From positions 5,208,001 through 5,272,000 of the forward strand of contig CP109468.1 in assembly GCA_036227345.1 (NCBI GenBank): 64,000 nucleotides of DNA. Direction: 5' to 3'. The stretch is from Streptomyces sp. NBC_01463. Its GTDB lineage: Bacteria; Actinomycetota; Actinomycetes; Streptomycetales; Streptomycetaceae. Every line of letters starts with the position of its first letter. Positions within the stretch are counted from its first letter, which is position 1. The notes below the pieces were generated by a model. The model was not told where the DNA came from. It did not search any database and was given only the letters and a program-made list of their open reading frames with translations. Shown here piece after piece: positions 16,066 to 22,069 of this stretch. The position numbers were made by a program, and so were the translations under genes.

Positions 16066-16455
16066 GACGACGCGACGCTGCGCGATGTCGACCTGGTCCT
16101 GCTCGACGTCAAGTCCTGGGACCGTGCCACGTACCGCGAGGTCACCGGCTGGCCGTTGCAGCCCACCCTGGACTTCGCCCACCGCCTCGCCGGACTCGGC
16201 AAGGAGGTGCACGTCCGCTTCGTGCTGGTGCCCGGACTGACCGACGACCCGGCCAACGTCGACGGGGTCGCCGCCTTCGCCGCCTCCCTCGGCAATGTCT
16301 CGCGCGTCGACGTCCTGCCGTTCCGCAAGCTGGGCGAGGCGAAGTGGCAGGCACTGGGCAAGCCGTTCACCCTGCACGACACCCCGTCGCGCACCCCCGG
16401 GCAGGTGGCCGCCGCCCGGGAGGTCTTCACCGCGCACGGACTGCACGCGGTGTGA
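16066..16455 (+). pseudogene. pflA: Truncated pyruvate formate-lyase activating enzyme (C-terminal remnant)
   Basis: The open frame from about 16066 to the TGA at 16453 encodes a segment matching the C-terminal half of PflA-type radical SAM activases: DVDLVLLDVKSWD, HVRFVLVPGLTDDPANVDG, DVLPFRKLGEAKW and a final PGQVAAAREVFTAHGL. The N-terminal half, including the CxxxCxxC cluster motif, is absent, and there is no start codon with a ribosome site in this frame. It is therefore a non-functional fragment. No pflB is nearby. It lies immediately before the five-gene redox operon, with a 12-bp repeat array directly after its stop. Confidence 0.8.
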
Positions 16456-16579: not shown

Positions 16580-16625
16580 CCGTAGGGCCATAAAACAGGA
16601 CTAATATCCCCATACGGCCCTACGG
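16580..16625. promoter_or_regulatory. Inverted repeat flanking the promoter of the Mo/Rieske operon
   Basis: CCGTAGGGCC (16580-16589) and GGCCCTACGG (16616-16625) are perfect inverted copies separated by 26 bp; the similarity continues inward for three more bases with one mismatch. Between them lies TAATAT (16602-16607), the best -10 box, with no -35-like sequence at the right spacing. This looks like paired regulator half-sites at an activator-dependent promoter. The first base of the operon's GTG start is 16633. Confidence 0.6.
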
Positions 16626-16632
16626 TGACGGG

Positions 16633-17784
16633 GTGACCGAGCCACCAGAAGCCTCCGCTTCAGCCGCGCAGTCCGACCCCGGTGCCAGCACCGGCTCCAC
16701 CGGCGCGGCCGTCGACCCGCCGCCCGCCGACGGGTCCGCGCGCGTCGGGGCCGCCGTCCCCCGGTCCGTCACCGCCCGCGCGACCGCTGCCGGCGTGATC
16801 GTCTCCCTCCTGCTGATCGTGGCCATCGTGCTGGGCAGCAGATTCCTGGAGAACTTCGACTCCGCACTCCTTCCGTACGCCGTGGCCACGGTCTTCCTCG
16901 CGTTCGGCGTCGCGTACCGCTACACGGTCTGGGTCTCCGCACCGGGCGCCCGCCGGTTGTTCAGGAAGGGCTGGGGGAGCCTCTTCTCGGCCGCCAACTT
17001 CCGCAAGGCCCCCACCGCCCTGCCGAAGATGATCGCCACCTATCTCGGCTTCCAGAAGTTCCTCGGCGCCCGCTCCCACGCCCGCTGGGCCGCCCACCAG
17101 CTGATCTTCTGGGGCTGCATCCTCGCGTCCCTGATCACCTTCCCGCTCACCTGGGGCTGGTTCACCTTCACCTCCGGCAGCGGCTCGGGTCCCGGCTACG
17201 AGATGCGCATCTGGGGCTTCAAGATCATCGGCTTCGACTCGCTGGACATCCTCGGCTGGCTGATGTTCCACGGCCTGGACATCGCCGCCGTCCTCGTCAT
17301 CCCGGGCGCCTCCTACTTCCTGTGGCGCCGGATGAAGGACCGCGGCGCGATCACCGGCCAGCGCTTCGGCTACGACCTGGTGCCGCTGATCGCGCTGATC
17401 GTCATCTCCGTGACCGGGCTCCTCCTGACCTTCTCGTCGATCTTCCTGCACGGCGGCGGATACGAGTTCCTGGCGATCCTCCACATGGTCTCGGTGGTCT
17501 TCACCCTCATCTACATCCCGTTCGGGAAGTTCTTCCACATCGTCCAGCGCCCGGCCGCCGTCGGCATGCAGCTGTTCAAGTACACCGGGCGGCAGGACCA
17601 GGAGGTCTTCAGCTGCCGCCGCTGCGAGGAACCCATCGACACCGCCCCGTACGTCGAGAACCTCCGCGGAACCATGCGCGACCTCAGCCTCGGCTTCGAC
17701 GAATGGGCCGAGTACTGCCCGCGCTGCAAGCGGGTGCTGCGCGGCAGCGCCTATCTCTCCCAGGTGAAGAAGGGCTTCAAGTGA
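16633..17784 (+). CDS. Cytochrome-b-like membrane subunit of a putative molybdo-oxidoreductase
   Basis: The 383-residue first gene of the operon has a disordered Pro/Ala N-terminus (about 50 residues) and about six membrane segments, the last around FLAILHMVSVVFTLIYIPFGKFFH. Histidines placed in or near helices (AAHQLIFWG, MFHGLDIA, LHMVSV, FFHIVQRP) resemble the haem-b ligands of NarI/DsrM-type quinol-oxidising subunits. A soluble C-terminus carries two CxxC pairs (CRRC ... CPRC), which could bind zinc or an iron-sulphur cluster. GTG 16633 follows a GGTGACGG sequence. Its TGA overlaps the GTG of the next gene, so translation is coupled. Annotation pipelines may call it an MFS protein, but no MFS motif is present. 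Confidence 0.7.
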   Translation: MTEPPEASASAAQSDPGASTGSTGAAVDPPPADGSARVGAAVPRSVTARATAAGVIVSLLLIVAIVLGSRFLENFDSALLPYAVATVFLAFGVAYRYTVWVSAPGARRLFRKGWGSLFSAANFRKAPTALPKMIATYLGFQKFLGARSHARWAAHQLIFWGCILASLITFPLTWGWFTFTSGSGSGPGYEMRIWGFKIIGFDSLDILGWLMFHGLDIAAVLVIPGASYFLWRRMKDRGAITGQRFGYDLVPLIALIVISVTGLLLTFSSIFLHGGGYEFLAILHMVSVVFTLIYIPFGKFFHIVQRPAAVGMQLFKYTGRQDQEVFSCRRCEEPIDTAPYVENLRGTMRDLSLGFDEWAEYCPRCKRVLRGSAYLSQVKKGFK

Positions 17785-20105
17785 CCGCGGATCCGCGAGC
17801 GGCCGACACCCGTGCGGTCGTCCCCCTCGACCCCTCCCTCGCCCCGCCTGGCACCCGCGCCTTCCGCGACGCCGGGGGCATCCCCGCCGACCAGTGGCAC
17901 GCCGACCAGAACGGGGAGACGCTCGTCCCCACCCACTGCTGCTTCTGCGGCGTCCAGTGCGGGATGTATCTGCGCGTCGACCGCGGCGGCAAGGTCTTCG
18001 GCGTCGAACCCCGCAACCACGACATCAACCGGATGCGCCTGTGCCCCAAGGGCATCAACGCCTACCAGCAGGTCAACCACCCCGACCGGCTCACCGCCCC
18101 GCTCATGCGCCGCTCCCGTGACGAGGAGTTCCGGGAGGTCTCCTGGGACGAGGCGCTCGACTTCACCGTCGCCGAGGTCAAGCGCATCCAGCAGACCTAC
18201 GGGAACGACGCCTTCGGGCTCCTCGGCGGGGCGAGCCTGTTCTCCGAGAAGACCTATCTGGTCGGCAAATTCGCCCGGGTCGCCCTCAAGTCCCGGCACG
18301 TCGACTACAACGGCCGGCTCTGCATGGTCAGCGCGGCGGGCGCCAACAAACTCGCCTTCGGCATCGACCGGGCCGGCAACCCCTTCTCCGACATCCTCCT
18401 CACCGACTGCCTGCTGATCGCCGGCTCCAACGTCGGCGAGTGCTTCCCCGTGATGACCCAGTACGTGTGGGGCGCCCGGGACCGCGGCGCCAGCCTGATC
18501 GTCATCGACCCGCGCGAGACCGCCATCGCCCGGACCGCCGACATCCATGTCGCCCTCAAGCCCGGCACCGACTCGGCGTTCTTCAACTCCGTCCTCCACG
18601 TGGTCATCGAGGAGGGCCTCACCGACGAGGCCTACCTCGCCGAACACGCCACCGGCTGGGCGGAGGTGAAGGCCAAGGCCGCCGAGTACCCGCCGGCCCG
18701 GGCCGCCGAGATCTGCGGGATCCCCGCCGAACAGGTCGTGCAGGTCGCCCGCACCTTCGCCCGCGCCCCCAAGGCCATGGCCTGGCACGCCCGCGGCATC
18801 GAGCACCACTCGCAGGGCGTCGAGAACTGCCTCACCGTGATCAACCTCTGCACCGCCACCGGACACATCGGCAAGCCCGGTGCCGGCTACGGAACCATCA
18901 CCGGCCAGGGCAACGGACAGGGCGGCCGCGAGCACGGCCAGAAGTCCGACCTGCTGCCCGGCGGCCGCTCGATCATGAACGAGGAGCACCGCCGGCAGAT
19001 CTGCGAGATCTGGGGCATCGAGGAGTCCGAACTCCCGCCCGCCGGAACCTCGATGATGGAAATGGTCTGGCAGATGCAGCGCCGCGAGATCCGCGGACTG
19101 ATCGGCATCTGCAACAACCCCTTCGTCTCCCTGCCCAACTACAAGGTGGTCAAGGAGGGATACGACGCCACGGAGTTCCACGCGCAATTCGACTTCTTTC
19201 TTTCCGAGACCGCTGCCAACGCCCACGTCGTCTTCCCCGTCACCACCTGGGCCGAGGACGAAGGGGTGATGGCCAACGCCGAAGCCCGGGTGGTCAAGCA
19301 CAACAAGGCCCAGGACCCGCCCCCCGGCGTCCGGACCGACACCTGGGTGATGTGCGAACTCGCCAAGCGGCTCGGCGCGGGCGACAAATTCGCCTTCGCC
19401 GACTCCCGCGAGGTCTTCGACGAGCTGCGGATCGCCTCCGCCGGCACCGTCAACGACTACTACGGCATCACCTACGAACGGCTGGAGGAGACCGGCGGCA
19501 TCGCCTGGCCCTGCCCCTCCACCGACCACCCCGGCACCCCCCGCCTCTTCGAGGACGGCCGGACCTACCACCCCGACGGCAAGATCCATATGCAGGTCGT
19601 CGACTGGCACCTGCCGATGGACCCGTACGACGACGACCACCCCATGTCCCTCACCACCGGTCGCACCGTCGCGCACTTCCTCTCCGGCAACCAGACCCGC
19701 CGTCTGGGCGCCCTCGTCGAACAGACCCCGCGTCCCTGGGCCGAGATCCACCCCTCCCACGGCTTCCGCAACGGCGAACCGGTCCGCGTCGTCACCCGAC
19801 GCGGCAGCGAGGTCTTCCCCGCCCTGGTCACCGAGGCGATCCGCCCCGACACCGTCTTCATCCCGTACCACTGGCCGGTCCCCACCGCGGCCAACGCGCT
19901 GACCATCGACGCCCTGGACCCGCGCTCCAAGATCCCCGAGTACAAGGTGTGCGCCTGCCGCATCGAGCACGCCGAGAGGATCGACGAGGTCCCCGCGCCC
20001 CCGGTCGCGCCCGGCCATGTCGCCTACCCGGAGACCCAGGTCTCCCGCACCGACCCGCTGCCCCCCACGTCCCCGCAGGGCCGTGGCACCTCGGAGAGGA
20101 GCTGA
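17781..20105 (+). CDS. Molybdopterin oxidoreductase catalytic subunit (NarB/FdhA-like)
   Basis: A 774-residue Mo-bisMGD enzyme of the DMSO-reductase superfamily. The N-terminal cluster motif CCFCGVQC ... RLCPKG gives the C-x2-C-x3-C-x(n)-C pattern for one [4Fe-4S] cluster. Further marks are GLLGGASLFSEKTYL, GSNVGECFPV, TGHIGKPGAGYGTITGQGNGQG, NNPFVSLPN, the FFLSETAANAHVVFP block and a C-terminal MopB-type domain (SLTTGRTVAHFLSGNQTRR). There is no twin-arginine signal, so it should act in the cytoplasm, as assimilatory nitrate reductases do. The GTG overlaps the preceding stop by 4 nt. The nitrate-reductase-like class is a guess; formate or another substrate is possible. Confidence 0.85.
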   Translation: MTADPRAADTRAVVPLDPSLAPPGTRAFRDAGGIPADQWHADQNGETLVPTHCCFCGVQCGMYLRVDRGGKVFGVEPRNHDINRMRLCPKGINAYQQVNHPDRLTAPLMRRSRDEEFREVSWDEALDFTVAEVKRIQQTYGNDAFGLLGGASLFSEKTYLVGKFARVALKSRHVDYNGRLCMVSAAGANKLAFGIDRAGNPFSDILLTDCLLIAGSNVGECFPVMTQYVWGARDRGASLIVIDPRETAIARTADIHVALKPGTDSAFFNSVLHVVIEEGLTDEAYLAEHATGWAEVKAKAAEYPPARAAEICGIPAEQVVQVARTFARAPKAMAWHARGIEHHSQGVENCLTVINLCTATGHIGKPGAGYGTITGQGNGQGGREHGQKSDLLPGGRSIMNEEHRRQICEIWGIEESELPPAGTSMMEMVWQMQRREIRGLIGICNNPFVSLPNYKVVKEGYDATEFHAQFDFFLSETAANAHVVFPVTTWAEDEGVMANAEARVVKHNKAQDPPPGVRTDTWVMCELAKRLGAGDKFAFADSREVFDELRIASAGTVNDYYGITYERLEETGGIAWPCPSTDHPGTPRLFEDGRTYHPDGKIHMQVVDWHLPMDPYDDDHPMSLTTGRTVAHFLSGNQTRRLGALVEQTPRPWAEIHPSHGFRNGEPVRVVTRRGSEVFPALVTEAIRPDTVFIPYHWPVPTAANALTIDALDPRSKIPEYKVCACRIEHAERIDEVPAPPVAPGHVAYPETQVSRTDPLPPTSPQGRGTSERS

Positions 20106-20112
20106 TGCCCGC

Positions 20113-20715
20113 ATGATGGGCAGAACGATCTTTATCGACCCGGGGCGCTGCATCGGCTGCCAGGCCTGTGTCTCCGCCTGCCGCGAATGCGACTCGCACC
20201 GGGGCAAGTCGATGATCCACCTCGACTACACCGACGAGGGCCAGTCCGTCGCCTCCCTTCCCACGGTCTGCATGCACTGCGAGGACCCCGTCGCACCCTG
20301 TGCCGAGGTCTGTCCCGCCGACGCGATCCTGGTGACCGCGGACGGCGTGGTGCAGCAGGCCGACACCACCCGCTGCATCGGCTGCGCCAACTGCGTCAAC
20401 GCCTGCCCCTTCGGCGTCCCGAAGATCGACCTCCAGGCGAAGCTGCAGATGAAGTGCAACCTCTGCTACGACCGCACCGCCTACGGCCTCGCCCCCATGT
20501 GCGCCACCGTCTGCCCGACCGGGGCGCTGTTCTACGGAACCGTCGAGGAGCTCCAGGCGGAGCGCCCCGGAGTCCAGGTCGCCGACACCTTCGTCTTCGG
20601 CGAGACCGAGGTCCGCACCGGCGTCGCCATGGTCGTCCCCGCCGACCGCGTCCAGTGGCCGGTGCCCGGCGGGCTGCCCGTCGTGGAGATCAACGGGAAG
20701 GACGTCCGCCGATGA
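20113..20715 (+). CDS. Four-cluster [4Fe-4S] ferredoxin-type electron-transfer subunit
   Basis: A 200-residue protein of the NrfC/DmsB/FdhB type. It has four cysteine groups: CIGCQACVSACREC, CMHCEDPVAPCAEVCP, CIGCANCVNACP and CNLCYDRTAYGLAPMCATVCP, enough for four cubane clusters forming an electron wire between a membrane subunit and a molybdenum subunit. No signal peptide or membrane helix. Starts at tandem ATG ATG (20113/20116), with GAGAGGAG about 12 nt upstream. The gap to the previous gene is 7 bp and the next ATG overlaps its stop, so it is clearly part of the operon. Confidence 0.88.
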   Translation: MMGRTIFIDPGRCIGCQACVSACRECDSHRGKSMIHLDYTDEGQSVASLPTVCMHCEDPVAPCAEVCPADAILVTADGVVQQADTTRCIGCANCVNACPFGVPKIDLQAKLQMKCNLCYDRTAYGLAPMCATVCPTGALFYGTVEELQAERPGVQVADTFVFGETEVRTGVAMVVPADRVQWPVPGGLPVVEINGKDVRR

Positions 20716-21425
20716 CCGTCACCGAACAGCCGTCCCCCGGGGACCCGGGACAGCCACCCTCCGGGGACCCGCGCGAGGCCCTCCACGACCGGATCGCCGC
20801 GGACTCCCTCACCACCCGCCGCGACTACCTCCGGATCGTCGCCACCGTCTCCGGCGGCCTCGCCGTCGGCGGACTCGGCGTCGCGGCCGGCATGCTTCCG
20901 CGCCACGGGGACCCGGAGGACGACAAGGCGCCCGCACCGAAGAGGGTCAGCTCCCAGCTCCTGCCCGGCGAGTCGATCGCCTTCAGCTACCCGGAGGAGG
21001 AGGACAAGGCGGTCGCCGTCCGGCTCGACGACGGCACCCTCGTCGGCTACTCGGCGATCTGCACCCACCTGGCCTGTGCCGTCCTCTGGCGGAAGGACCG
21101 GGGCTCCGAGGGCGAGCTGTACTGCCCCTGCCACGAGGGTGTCTTCGACGCCCGCACCGGCGAGGTCACCGCCGGACCGCCGCCCCGCGGCCTGCCGAAG
21201 GTGGTCCTCACCGAGCAGACGGACGGCAGCGTCTGGGCGGTCGGCACCACCCGTTCCGGCGAGAGCGTCGAACACGGGTTGTGCCGCCAGCTCGGCGACG
21301 ACCGCCCGGACCTCGCCGCCAGGATCGGCTGCCCCGGAGTCCGCGGCGGAGCCGAGGCCCCCGAGGCCGCCGGCACCTCCCGTACCCGGGCCAACGAGCC
21401 CGAGACCTCCGGCAGGCGGACATGA
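20712..21425 (+). CDS. Rieske [2Fe-2S] protein with twin-arginine-like N-terminus
   Basis: A 237-residue protein. After about 35 hydrophilic residues comes TTRRDYLR followed by a hydrophobic stretch (IVATVSGGLAVGGLGVAAG), a twin-arginine-like signal or anchor. The Rieske signature is CTHLAC ... YCPCHEGVFD (about residues 120-145), giving two Cys and two His ligands and the extra disulphide-type cysteines (C-T-H-L-A-C, C-P-C-H). The C-terminal tail of about 60 residues is Ala/Glu-rich. Its ATG overlaps the ferredoxin gene's TGA. The predicted export of this subunit contrasts with the cytoplasmic Mo subunit. Confidence 0.85.
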   Translation: MTVTEQPSPGDPGQPPSGDPREALHDRIAADSLTTRRDYLRIVATVSGGLAVGGLGVAAGMLPRHGDPEDDKAPAPKRVSSQLLPGESIAFSYPEEEDKAVAVRLDDGTLVGYSAICTHLACAVLWRKDRGSEGELYCPCHEGVFDARTGEVTAGPPPRGLPKVVLTEQTDGSVWAVGTTRSGESVEHGLCRQLGDDRPDLAARIGCPGVRGGAEAPEAAGTSRTRANEPETSGRRT

Positions 21426-21799
21426 GCGACGCCCAGCAGCCCACCGGCCCGCACTACCCGGAGTACCACCCGGGCAGCGCACGGCCCGAACTCAACCGGC
21501 CCGTCCACGAGCGCTACCCGCAGATCAGGTCCACCAGCGGCTACGGCGACCCCCGTGTCCGTCACACCGGACCGGGACCGGGAGCCGGGACCGACCAGGA
21601 ACCCGAGCGGTCCTCGAAGCTCACGGCACGGCTGGTCCTGGCCATGACCGTCGTGATCGGGCAGCTCTGGGGGCTCACGGTCGTCATCGACGCATGGATG
21701 GAGGGCCACTCCGGCACCGCCTGGTGGGGGGCCGGCTTCCTCTGCCTGTCGTTCCTCGTCGTCCTCGGACTCTGGTGGCTCGACCCGAAGGACCGCTGA
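21422..21799 (+). CDS. Small two-helix membrane protein of the redox operon
   Basis: A 125-residue protein that I do not recognise. Residues 1-65 are hydrophilic and rich in Pro, Gly and Arg. Two membrane helices follow: LVLAMTVVIGQLWGLTVVI and WWGAGFLCLSFLVVLGLWWL, with a short acidic loop and a charged DPKDR end. ATG 21422 overlaps the Rieske TGA by 4 nt. By position it is the last subunit or an assembly factor of the oxidoreductase, perhaps anchoring the Rieske or cytochrome subunit. No metal-binding residues stand out. Confidence 0.8.
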   Translation: MSDAQQPTGPHYPEYHPGSARPELNRPVHERYPQIRSTSGYGDPRVRHTGPGPGAGTDQEPERSSKLTARLVLAMTVVIGQLWGLTVVIDAWMEGHSGTAWWGAGFLCLSFLVVLGLWWLDPKDR

Positions 21800-21856: not shown

Positions 21857-22069
21857 ATGAGTACCGCCCCCGCCTCCGGCCCGCGTGACGCGAAGCCGAA
21901 CCCGCCGGACCGGCCCGAGCAGCCCAAGCCGGCACTGATCTTCGACGATCCGCTGGACCGGCAGTCCGCGGACGACACGGACCGGGGATGGGGAGAGCGG
22001 GCCCCGTCCGGCGGCAGCGCCGCCGACCTGGCCCGGTTCCTCGACGAGAAGCCCCCGCACCACATCTGA
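21857..22069 (+). CDS. Short conserved Streptomyces protein of unknown function
   Basis: A 70-residue hydrophilic protein starting at ATG 21857 with TGGAG 4-5 nt upstream. Composition is Pro/Asp/Arg-rich with a motif ALIFDDPLDR in the middle and AADLARFLDEKPPHHI at the end. No helix or domain could be assigned. GC content and codon use match the operon upstream. It marks the last normal gene before the low-GC island. Confidence 0.65.
   Translation: MSTAPASGPRDAKPNPPDRPEQPKPALIFDDPLDRQSADDTDRGWGERAPSGGSAADLARFLDEKPPHHI

Follow-up and report, generated by a model that had tools for sequence, protein, structure and literature searches.

Introduction

The known Nas enzymes are soluble and draw their electrons from NADH, ferredoxin or flavodoxin. 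Here we describe a five-gene operon, located in a 64,000-nucleotide stretch of the genome of Streptomyces sp. NBC_01463 (contig CP109468.1, positions 5,208,001 to 5,272,000; host assembly of 9.07 Mb), hereafter the window. It encodes a cytochrome b, a molybdenum-bis(molybdopterin guanine dinucleotide) (Mo-bisMGD) subunit, a four-cluster ferredoxin, a Rieske protein and a small membrane protein, and it is likely to specify a menaquinol:nitrate oxidoreductase bound to the membrane, with a catalytic subunit of the NasC/NasA lineage and not of the NarG or NapA type.

With NasC, NasA and NarB the operon product shares the catalytic motif, the grouping in the tree and the lack of a visible export signal; it differs from them in being encoded with ferredoxin, cytochrome b and exported Rieske partners, and in scoring under the NasC cut-off. 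A MopB survey treats NasC/NasA as assimilatory (PMC10100899). In common with NarGHI, there are a NarI-like membrane subunit, a histidine pair 18 residues apart, an Fe-S subunit, a predicted cytoplasmic Mo site and quinol as the proposed donor. In contrast to NarGHI, however, the catalytic subunit is of the NasC type with Cys-Met and is not NarG, the ferredoxin is smaller, and a Cys4 domain as well as Rieske and DUF6755-like subunits are added.

In the haloarchaeal pNar (NarG, NarH, NarC, NarB), as described in PMC7754194, nitrate reductase genes are clustered with those of di-b-heme and Rieske proteins, and a Q-cycle has been proposed. There, NarGH is oriented to the outside, NarC, which has nine helices, lacks homology to NarI, and NarB went undetected after the initial enrichment step. 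A similar grouping of genes is seen in the operon, whereas its cytochrome is NarI-like with six predicted helices and its Mo subunit, without a visible export signal, is predicted to be cytoplasmic.

Arsenite oxidase AioAB likewise pairs a Mo subunit with a Rieske subunit; AioB is exported by the twin-arginine translocation (Tat) pathway, and to our knowledge AioAB has no cytochrome b or four-cluster ferredoxin partner. AioA provides no protein ligand to Mo, according to the MopB survey (PMC10100899), unlike the operon Mo subunit with its predicted Cys ligand. NapA is exported and has a c-type cytochrome partner, whereas neither the Mo subunit nor the ferredoxin of the operon has a hydrophobic stretch and Pfam detected no cytochrome c domain in the operon products. 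The Mo and ferredoxin subunits have homologs in FdhF and HycB of E. coli formate hydrogenlyase. In that complex, the metal site of HycF, CxxC-x34-CPxC, lies close to the interface with FdhF, within a domain that contacts HycB (PMC9474812). No description of the operon architecture was found in searches of open-access papers by title, start of abstract or passages, a weak absence given that subscription papers were mostly outside the search.

Results

The Catalytic Subunit and Its Substrate

The predicted Mo ligand of the Mo subunit is C181, in DYNGRLCMVSAA, and in 19 of 19 operon rows it sits in the motif DYNGR[LM]CMVSA. Six rows of the NasC/NasA group (from Mycobacterium, Paenibacillus and Streptomyces) show DYNGRFCM. 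Where formate dehydrogenase (FDH) has R-V-Sec-H the Mo subunit has R-L-C-M, the comparison motifs being V-Sec-H in FdhF and T-C-H in an FDH-like paralog of the host. Since Cys-Met is found in NapA as well, the motif taken by itself excludes formate dehydrogenase and not NapA.

Among the NCBIfam models, NasC gave the best score (760.7 bits, under the equivalog cut-off of 1100), 200 bits above the Fdh-alpha model (556.6 bits; cut-off 666.25). The scores of the NAPA model (221.4 bits; cut-off 930.55) and of the arsenite oxidase model TIGR02693 (142.9 bits; cut-off 359.05) were also under their cut-offs. In a maximum-likelihood tree of 31 rows, the 19 rows from operons formed one clade (98/98) inside a 27-row group together with the NasC/NasA rows. 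FDH, NapA and one host paralog were separated from this group, these outer branches being long and flagged by a tool warning. Two NasC-like proteins of Actinobacteriota (L123 and L124; 1198 and 863 amino acids with a crude choice of start) branch next to the operon clade. Judged from these sequence comparisons and from the neighboring genes and cytochrome fusion described below, the substrate of the operon enzyme is probably nitrate. A previous sequence-only reading of the window had called the substrate unknown and had missed this hint from the relatives; with nitrate indicated, the idea that no substrate can be assigned is not supported.

Conservation of the Gene Set and Nitrate-Linked Neighbors

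All five genes proposed by the sequence-only reading were recovered (Table 1), with 4-nucleotide overlaps at the cytochrome/Mo, ferredoxin/Rieske and Rieske/small gene junctions and a gap of 7 nucleotides between the Mo and ferredoxin genes. Pfam and NCBIfam scans backed its Mo-bisMGD, 4Fe-4S and Rieske domain assignments.

A scan of genome contigs yielded at least 598 stretches and at least 591 relatives, of which the best 80 were used. All but one of these loci are titled Streptomyces, the other being Microtetraspora, and the Mo subunits of the nearest named loci reach up to 97% identity. The five genes are present in order in 76 of the 80 loci; L010, L036, L049 and L050 are cut by contig ends. 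Outside the genus, we assembled 21 deep-actinobacterial loci from 20 genomes, with a Mo-subunit identity of at least 50% (ten rows at 40-44% were left out). Cytochrome and Mo genes occur in 21/21 of them, and the cytochrome-Mo-ferredoxin-Rieske series in 20/21, L136 ending inside the Mo gene. Because the order is kept in 76/80 and 20/21 loci, the gene set represents more than chance.

A DUF6755-like small gene was found in all 19 deep loci not cut by a contig end, mostly by tblastn (some matches weak), in others with PF20540 and in L144 only by reading of open reading frames (ORFs); it lies about 1.8 kb (L133) and 4.2 kb (L131) away from the Rieske gene in two of them. At E≤1e-15, the cytochrome query matched 6 of the 296 genomes in the class, none of them outside the genus of the host; the Mo-subunit query matched 38 of 396 genomes of the phylum at E≤1e-150. 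PF20540 matched 10 of the 396 genomes, all ten among those with the Mo subunit and none of them Streptomyces, and 10 of its 11 matches lie inside the operon, with one match on a contig of its own; the model is insensitive and misses operon genomes, including the host, in which the gene is present. All five genes are also present on two Deinococcus plasmids that were read over their whole length; the plasmid records name the cytochrome MFS transporter and the Mo subunit molybdopterin oxidoreductase family protein. The Rieske and small genes thus accompany the Mo subunit beyond the host genome, and the neighborhood check that the sequence-only reading had set as a refuting test did not refute its proposal.

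NarK-family genes were detected in 7 of the 21 deep loci (one partial), HPP proteins (PF04982), a family that includes nitrite transporters, just downstream of the operon in nine, and a NirA-like reductase in three. NarK or HPP is near the operon in 16/21, and at least one of the three in 18/21; of the three loci with none, two are truncated by the end of their contig. Each of the two Deinococcus loci has a pair of NarK-type genes.

The Cytochrome b and the Two Sides of the Membrane

The window cytochrome had no Pfam match, and its NCBIfam matches (QmoC, TmcC, TcuB and HmcE) were weak and all far under cut-off. It keeps two histidine pairs, six membrane helices are read from the predicted model, and NarI is among the best structural matches of that model after re-alignment. 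We consider that the modeled fold resembles NarI and would hold two b hemes. The two extra CxxC pairs reported by the sequence-only reading are indeed there (C328/C331 and C362/C365) and make up a C-terminal Cys4 domain, CxxC-x30-CPxC, which resembles the HycF metal motif.

Foldseek alone gave no match at E≤0.001, with unrelated receptors ranked first and NarI and EtfD lower, and the latter two lead only once re-aligned. PDB sequence searches returned one chance match for the cytochrome and two weak matches for its C-terminal 69 residues. Going by the warning that the tool itself gives, the fold and Cys4 matches carry limited weight, and this slightly lowers our confidence in the menaquinol:nitrate oxidoreductase.

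A search with a Deinococcus cytochrome, with 8000 candidates scored, retrieved at least 3703 proteins at E≤1e-5, of which the best 120 were examined; the names among these 120 matches included Deinococcus, Armatimonadetes, Chthonomonadales and Acidimicrobiia, and two of the proteins (P0223 and P0226) additionally carry an MFS domain. Among the best 120 of 7889 relatives of P0226 (family P0241-P0359), 120/120 had the MFS domain and the motif PFGK[FL]FH, 110 were at least 700 amino acids long and 113 showed the Cys4 pattern; the organism is named for 13, each one Thermoanaerobaculia or Acidobacteriota. P0256 matches the NarK family over residues 16-344 (232.6 bits, under cut-off) and the window cytochrome over residues 406-728, with 46% identity. 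A tblastn search with P0256 returned only four Deinococcus copies, matching the cytochrome half, the fusions being known from proteins alone.

NarK-type carriers have both ends inside. The fusion therefore places the cytochrome N-terminus inside and, with six helices, also the C-terminal Cys4 domain, and charge bias puts this domain in the cytoplasm in 139/139 rows. Hence, fusion and charge bias predict a cytoplasmic Mo/ferredoxin side, and the twin-arginine signal predicts an outside location of the Rieske protein. The sequence-only reading had proposed that the Mo subunit lacks an export signal and that the Mo and Rieske parts face opposite sides of the membrane; both proposals agree with the missing hydrophobic stretches, the twin arginine of the Rieske protein, the charge bias and the NarK fusion.

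The Rieske protein alone bears an export signal, and hitch-hiker export is known for AioAB and other Tat enzymes, so that Mo subunit, ferredoxin and Rieske protein might leave together on that signal and reduce the substrate outside. We regard this as very improbable, since both the presence of NarK or HPP near 16/21 deep loci and the NarK fusion fit a site in the cytoplasm, and since charge bias and fusion put the Cys4 domain in the cytoplasm.

The Rieske, Ferredoxin and Small Proteins

The ligand set of the Rieske protein (C117, H119, C122, C138, C140, H141) and its twin arginine (R36, R37), the anchor signal noted by the sequence-only reading, are kept in 30/30 diverse rows. Four ligands plus a disulfide pair are typical of quinol-oxidizing Rieske proteins, and the best PDB matches were a bc-type Rieske protein and AioB. 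The ferredoxin subunit is homologous to FDH-beta, HybA, DmsB and HycB-type subunits. The small protein, already recognized as two-helical, matches PF20540 weakly (E=9e-4, 19.8 bits, under the 27-bit gathering score) and has the same operon position as Deinococcus proteins annotated as DUF6755 family protein.

In the menaquinol:nitrate oxidoreductase that we propose, the NarI-like cytochrome b would accept electrons from quinol and conduct them across the membrane, from its outer face to its inner one, by way of two b hemes. The Cys4 domain of the cytochrome would dock the cytoplasmic ferredoxin-Mo pair. Nitrate, imported by a NarK-type carrier, would be converted to nitrite in the cytoplasm. 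Exported by the Tat pathway, the Rieske protein would lie outside, by the quinol-oxidizing face, and is probably involved in the oxidation of quinol; the small protein with two helices may be structural. A quinol-linked reductase with its Mo and Rieske parts on opposite sides, as the sequence-only reading had offered, is supported as a reading.

Two other roles of the Rieske protein, an electron split and a redox sensor, both along lines raised by the sequence-only reading, were weighed. In the first, it would remove one electron from menaquinol at the outer face and hand it to an acceptor outside, for example the bcc-aa3 chain, and the second electron would reach nitrate in the cytoplasm over the NarI-type hemes. 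This would be a split of the Q-cycle kind on a NarI-like instead of a bc1 cytochrome; we consider such bifurcation unlikely. No operon product is a plausible outside acceptor for a Rieske electron, a point in favor of an exported redox sensor that only gates or reports on the cytoplasmic Mo enzyme. That role is doubtful too, to a similar degree, as quinol-oxidizing-type ligands and the disulfide pair are kept throughout the diverse rows and the best PDB matches of the Rieske protein are those named above.

Upstream Genes and Promoter

The features of the locus are compiled in Table 1.

Table 1. Coordinates of the operon and adjacent features in the window.
Feature	Position	Strand	Remarks
pflA C-terminal remnant (pyruvate formate-lyase activating enzyme), N-terminal half missing	16090..16455	+	~121 aa; TIGR02493
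Candidate -10 element TACGGT	16621..16626	+	6 nt before cytochrome GTG start; leaderless mRNA proposed
Cytochrome b, six membrane helices assigned, NarI-like, C-terminal Cys4 domain	16633..17784	+	383 aa; two hemes inferred
Cys4 motif C328-x2-C331-x30-C362-P-x-C365 within cytochrome gene	17614..17727	+	
Mo-bisMGD catalytic subunit, NasC/NasA type, no export signal seen	17781..20105	+	774 aa; NCBIfam, motif comparison, tree
Four-cluster ferredoxin subunit	20113..20715	+	200 aa; Pfam Fer4_11 and related models
Rieske [2Fe-2S] protein, twin-arginine signal anchor, full high-potential ligand set	20712..21425	+	237 aa; PF00355
Small two-helix membrane protein, weakly DUF6755 (PF20540)	21422..21799	+	125 aa

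The pflA remnant just upstream of the operon, which the sequence-only reading had missed, comprises the last 121 residues (TIGR02493 positions 120-233 of 235, E=6e-32). No pyruvate formate-lyase (PFL) match was found in the host genome at E≤1e-100; NarK-like genes are present elsewhere in it. In L062 (2042-6809), PFL (TIGR01255, 1181 bits; cut-off 994.2) stands with its activase and a NarK-type gene, as in other Streptomyces loci. At the 75 Streptomyces loci with at least 4.8 kb upstream (L150, not Streptomyces, was left out), NarK, full PFL and PflA were present in 32, PFL and PflA only in 3, NarK and PflA without full PFL in 5, and none of the three in 35. Partial PFL or PflA was observed in L048, L056, L059, L063 and L079. 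The remnant here, together with full or partial copies in relatives, suggests repeated PFL loss in the genus.

Upstream PFL with PflA, seen for instance in L062 and present together in 35 of the 75 loci, and the Fdh-alpha score would suit a formate dehydrogenase passing PFL-derived formate into menaquinone. This is highly unlikely in our judgment: the catalytic motif is Cys-Met and not Cys/Sec-His, NasC outscores Fdh-alpha, the tree separates the Mo subunit from FdhF and the host FDH-like paralog, the cytochrome is elsewhere fused to NarK, and 40/75 Streptomyces loci have no full PFL.

Of the 73 related loci in which a start was recognized (84 looked at), 72 have TANNNT at the exact position of TACGGT; an AAAAC(A/G)GG block recurs further upstream. 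This suggests that the cytochrome transcript is leaderless and driven by a separate promoter, even in loci where pflA lies ahead of it. A GGAC-N5-TCC palindrome upstream of the cytochrome gene occurs in only 2/81 related loci, and no regulator was therefore inferred from it. Downstream of the operon, a 70-amino-acid ORF (21857-22069) without a family match in Pfam and NCBIfam scans recurs in most Streptomyces loci, in some of them past a further gene.

Distribution and Use in Streptomyces

In a sample of 150 Streptomyces genomes, with narG identified by a TIGR01580 match at E≤1e-100, the operon was present in 34, narG in 50 and both in 4, leaving 30 operon genomes without narG. The operon is thus commoner in genomes without narG (Fisher p 0.002, uncorrected for kinship), and the two being seldom together fits replacement. 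The host has no NarG-type match at the same threshold.

PFL and the operon showed no genome-wide association (14/34 vs 40/116, Fisher p 0.54), which leaves their adjacency as the only informative relation. Of the 14 genomes with both, 12 have PFL no more than 6 kb from the operon. Among the 29 genomes with PFL and narG, 8 have the two at most 60 kb apart, and one of the eight has the operon as well; NarK-PFL pairs without the operon occur in 4 of the 17 genomes that have this NarK. The occurrence of two unrelated nitrate reductases close to PFL suggests use at low oxygen.

The enzyme might instead serve mainly assimilation, as a nitrate reductase drawing on quinol, a question of use that is compatible with the proposed menaquinol:nitrate oxidoreductase. 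The NasC-type catalytic subunit and the NirA-like reductase near 3/21 deep loci point in this direction. We hold it as a tentative possibility, since a NasC-like paralog is already present in the host, the operon is commoner without narG, and GAF-domain histidine kinases (near 4/21 deep loci), hemerythrin (near L130), a ScdA-type protein (near L139) and PFL in Streptomyces suggest low oxygen or NO.

Discussion

If the proposed assignment is true, some Streptomyces, deep Actinobacteriota and Deinococcus have a membrane-bound nitrate reductase that has gone unnoticed, as perhaps do Armatimonadota and Acidobacteriota, the last two judged by cytochrome relatives only. Existing annotations of the Deinococcus plasmids name no membrane-bound nitrate reductase for these genes. 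Estimates of which soil bacteria reduce nitrate would change, and the role of a Rieske protein beside a NarI-like cytochrome would become directly testable.

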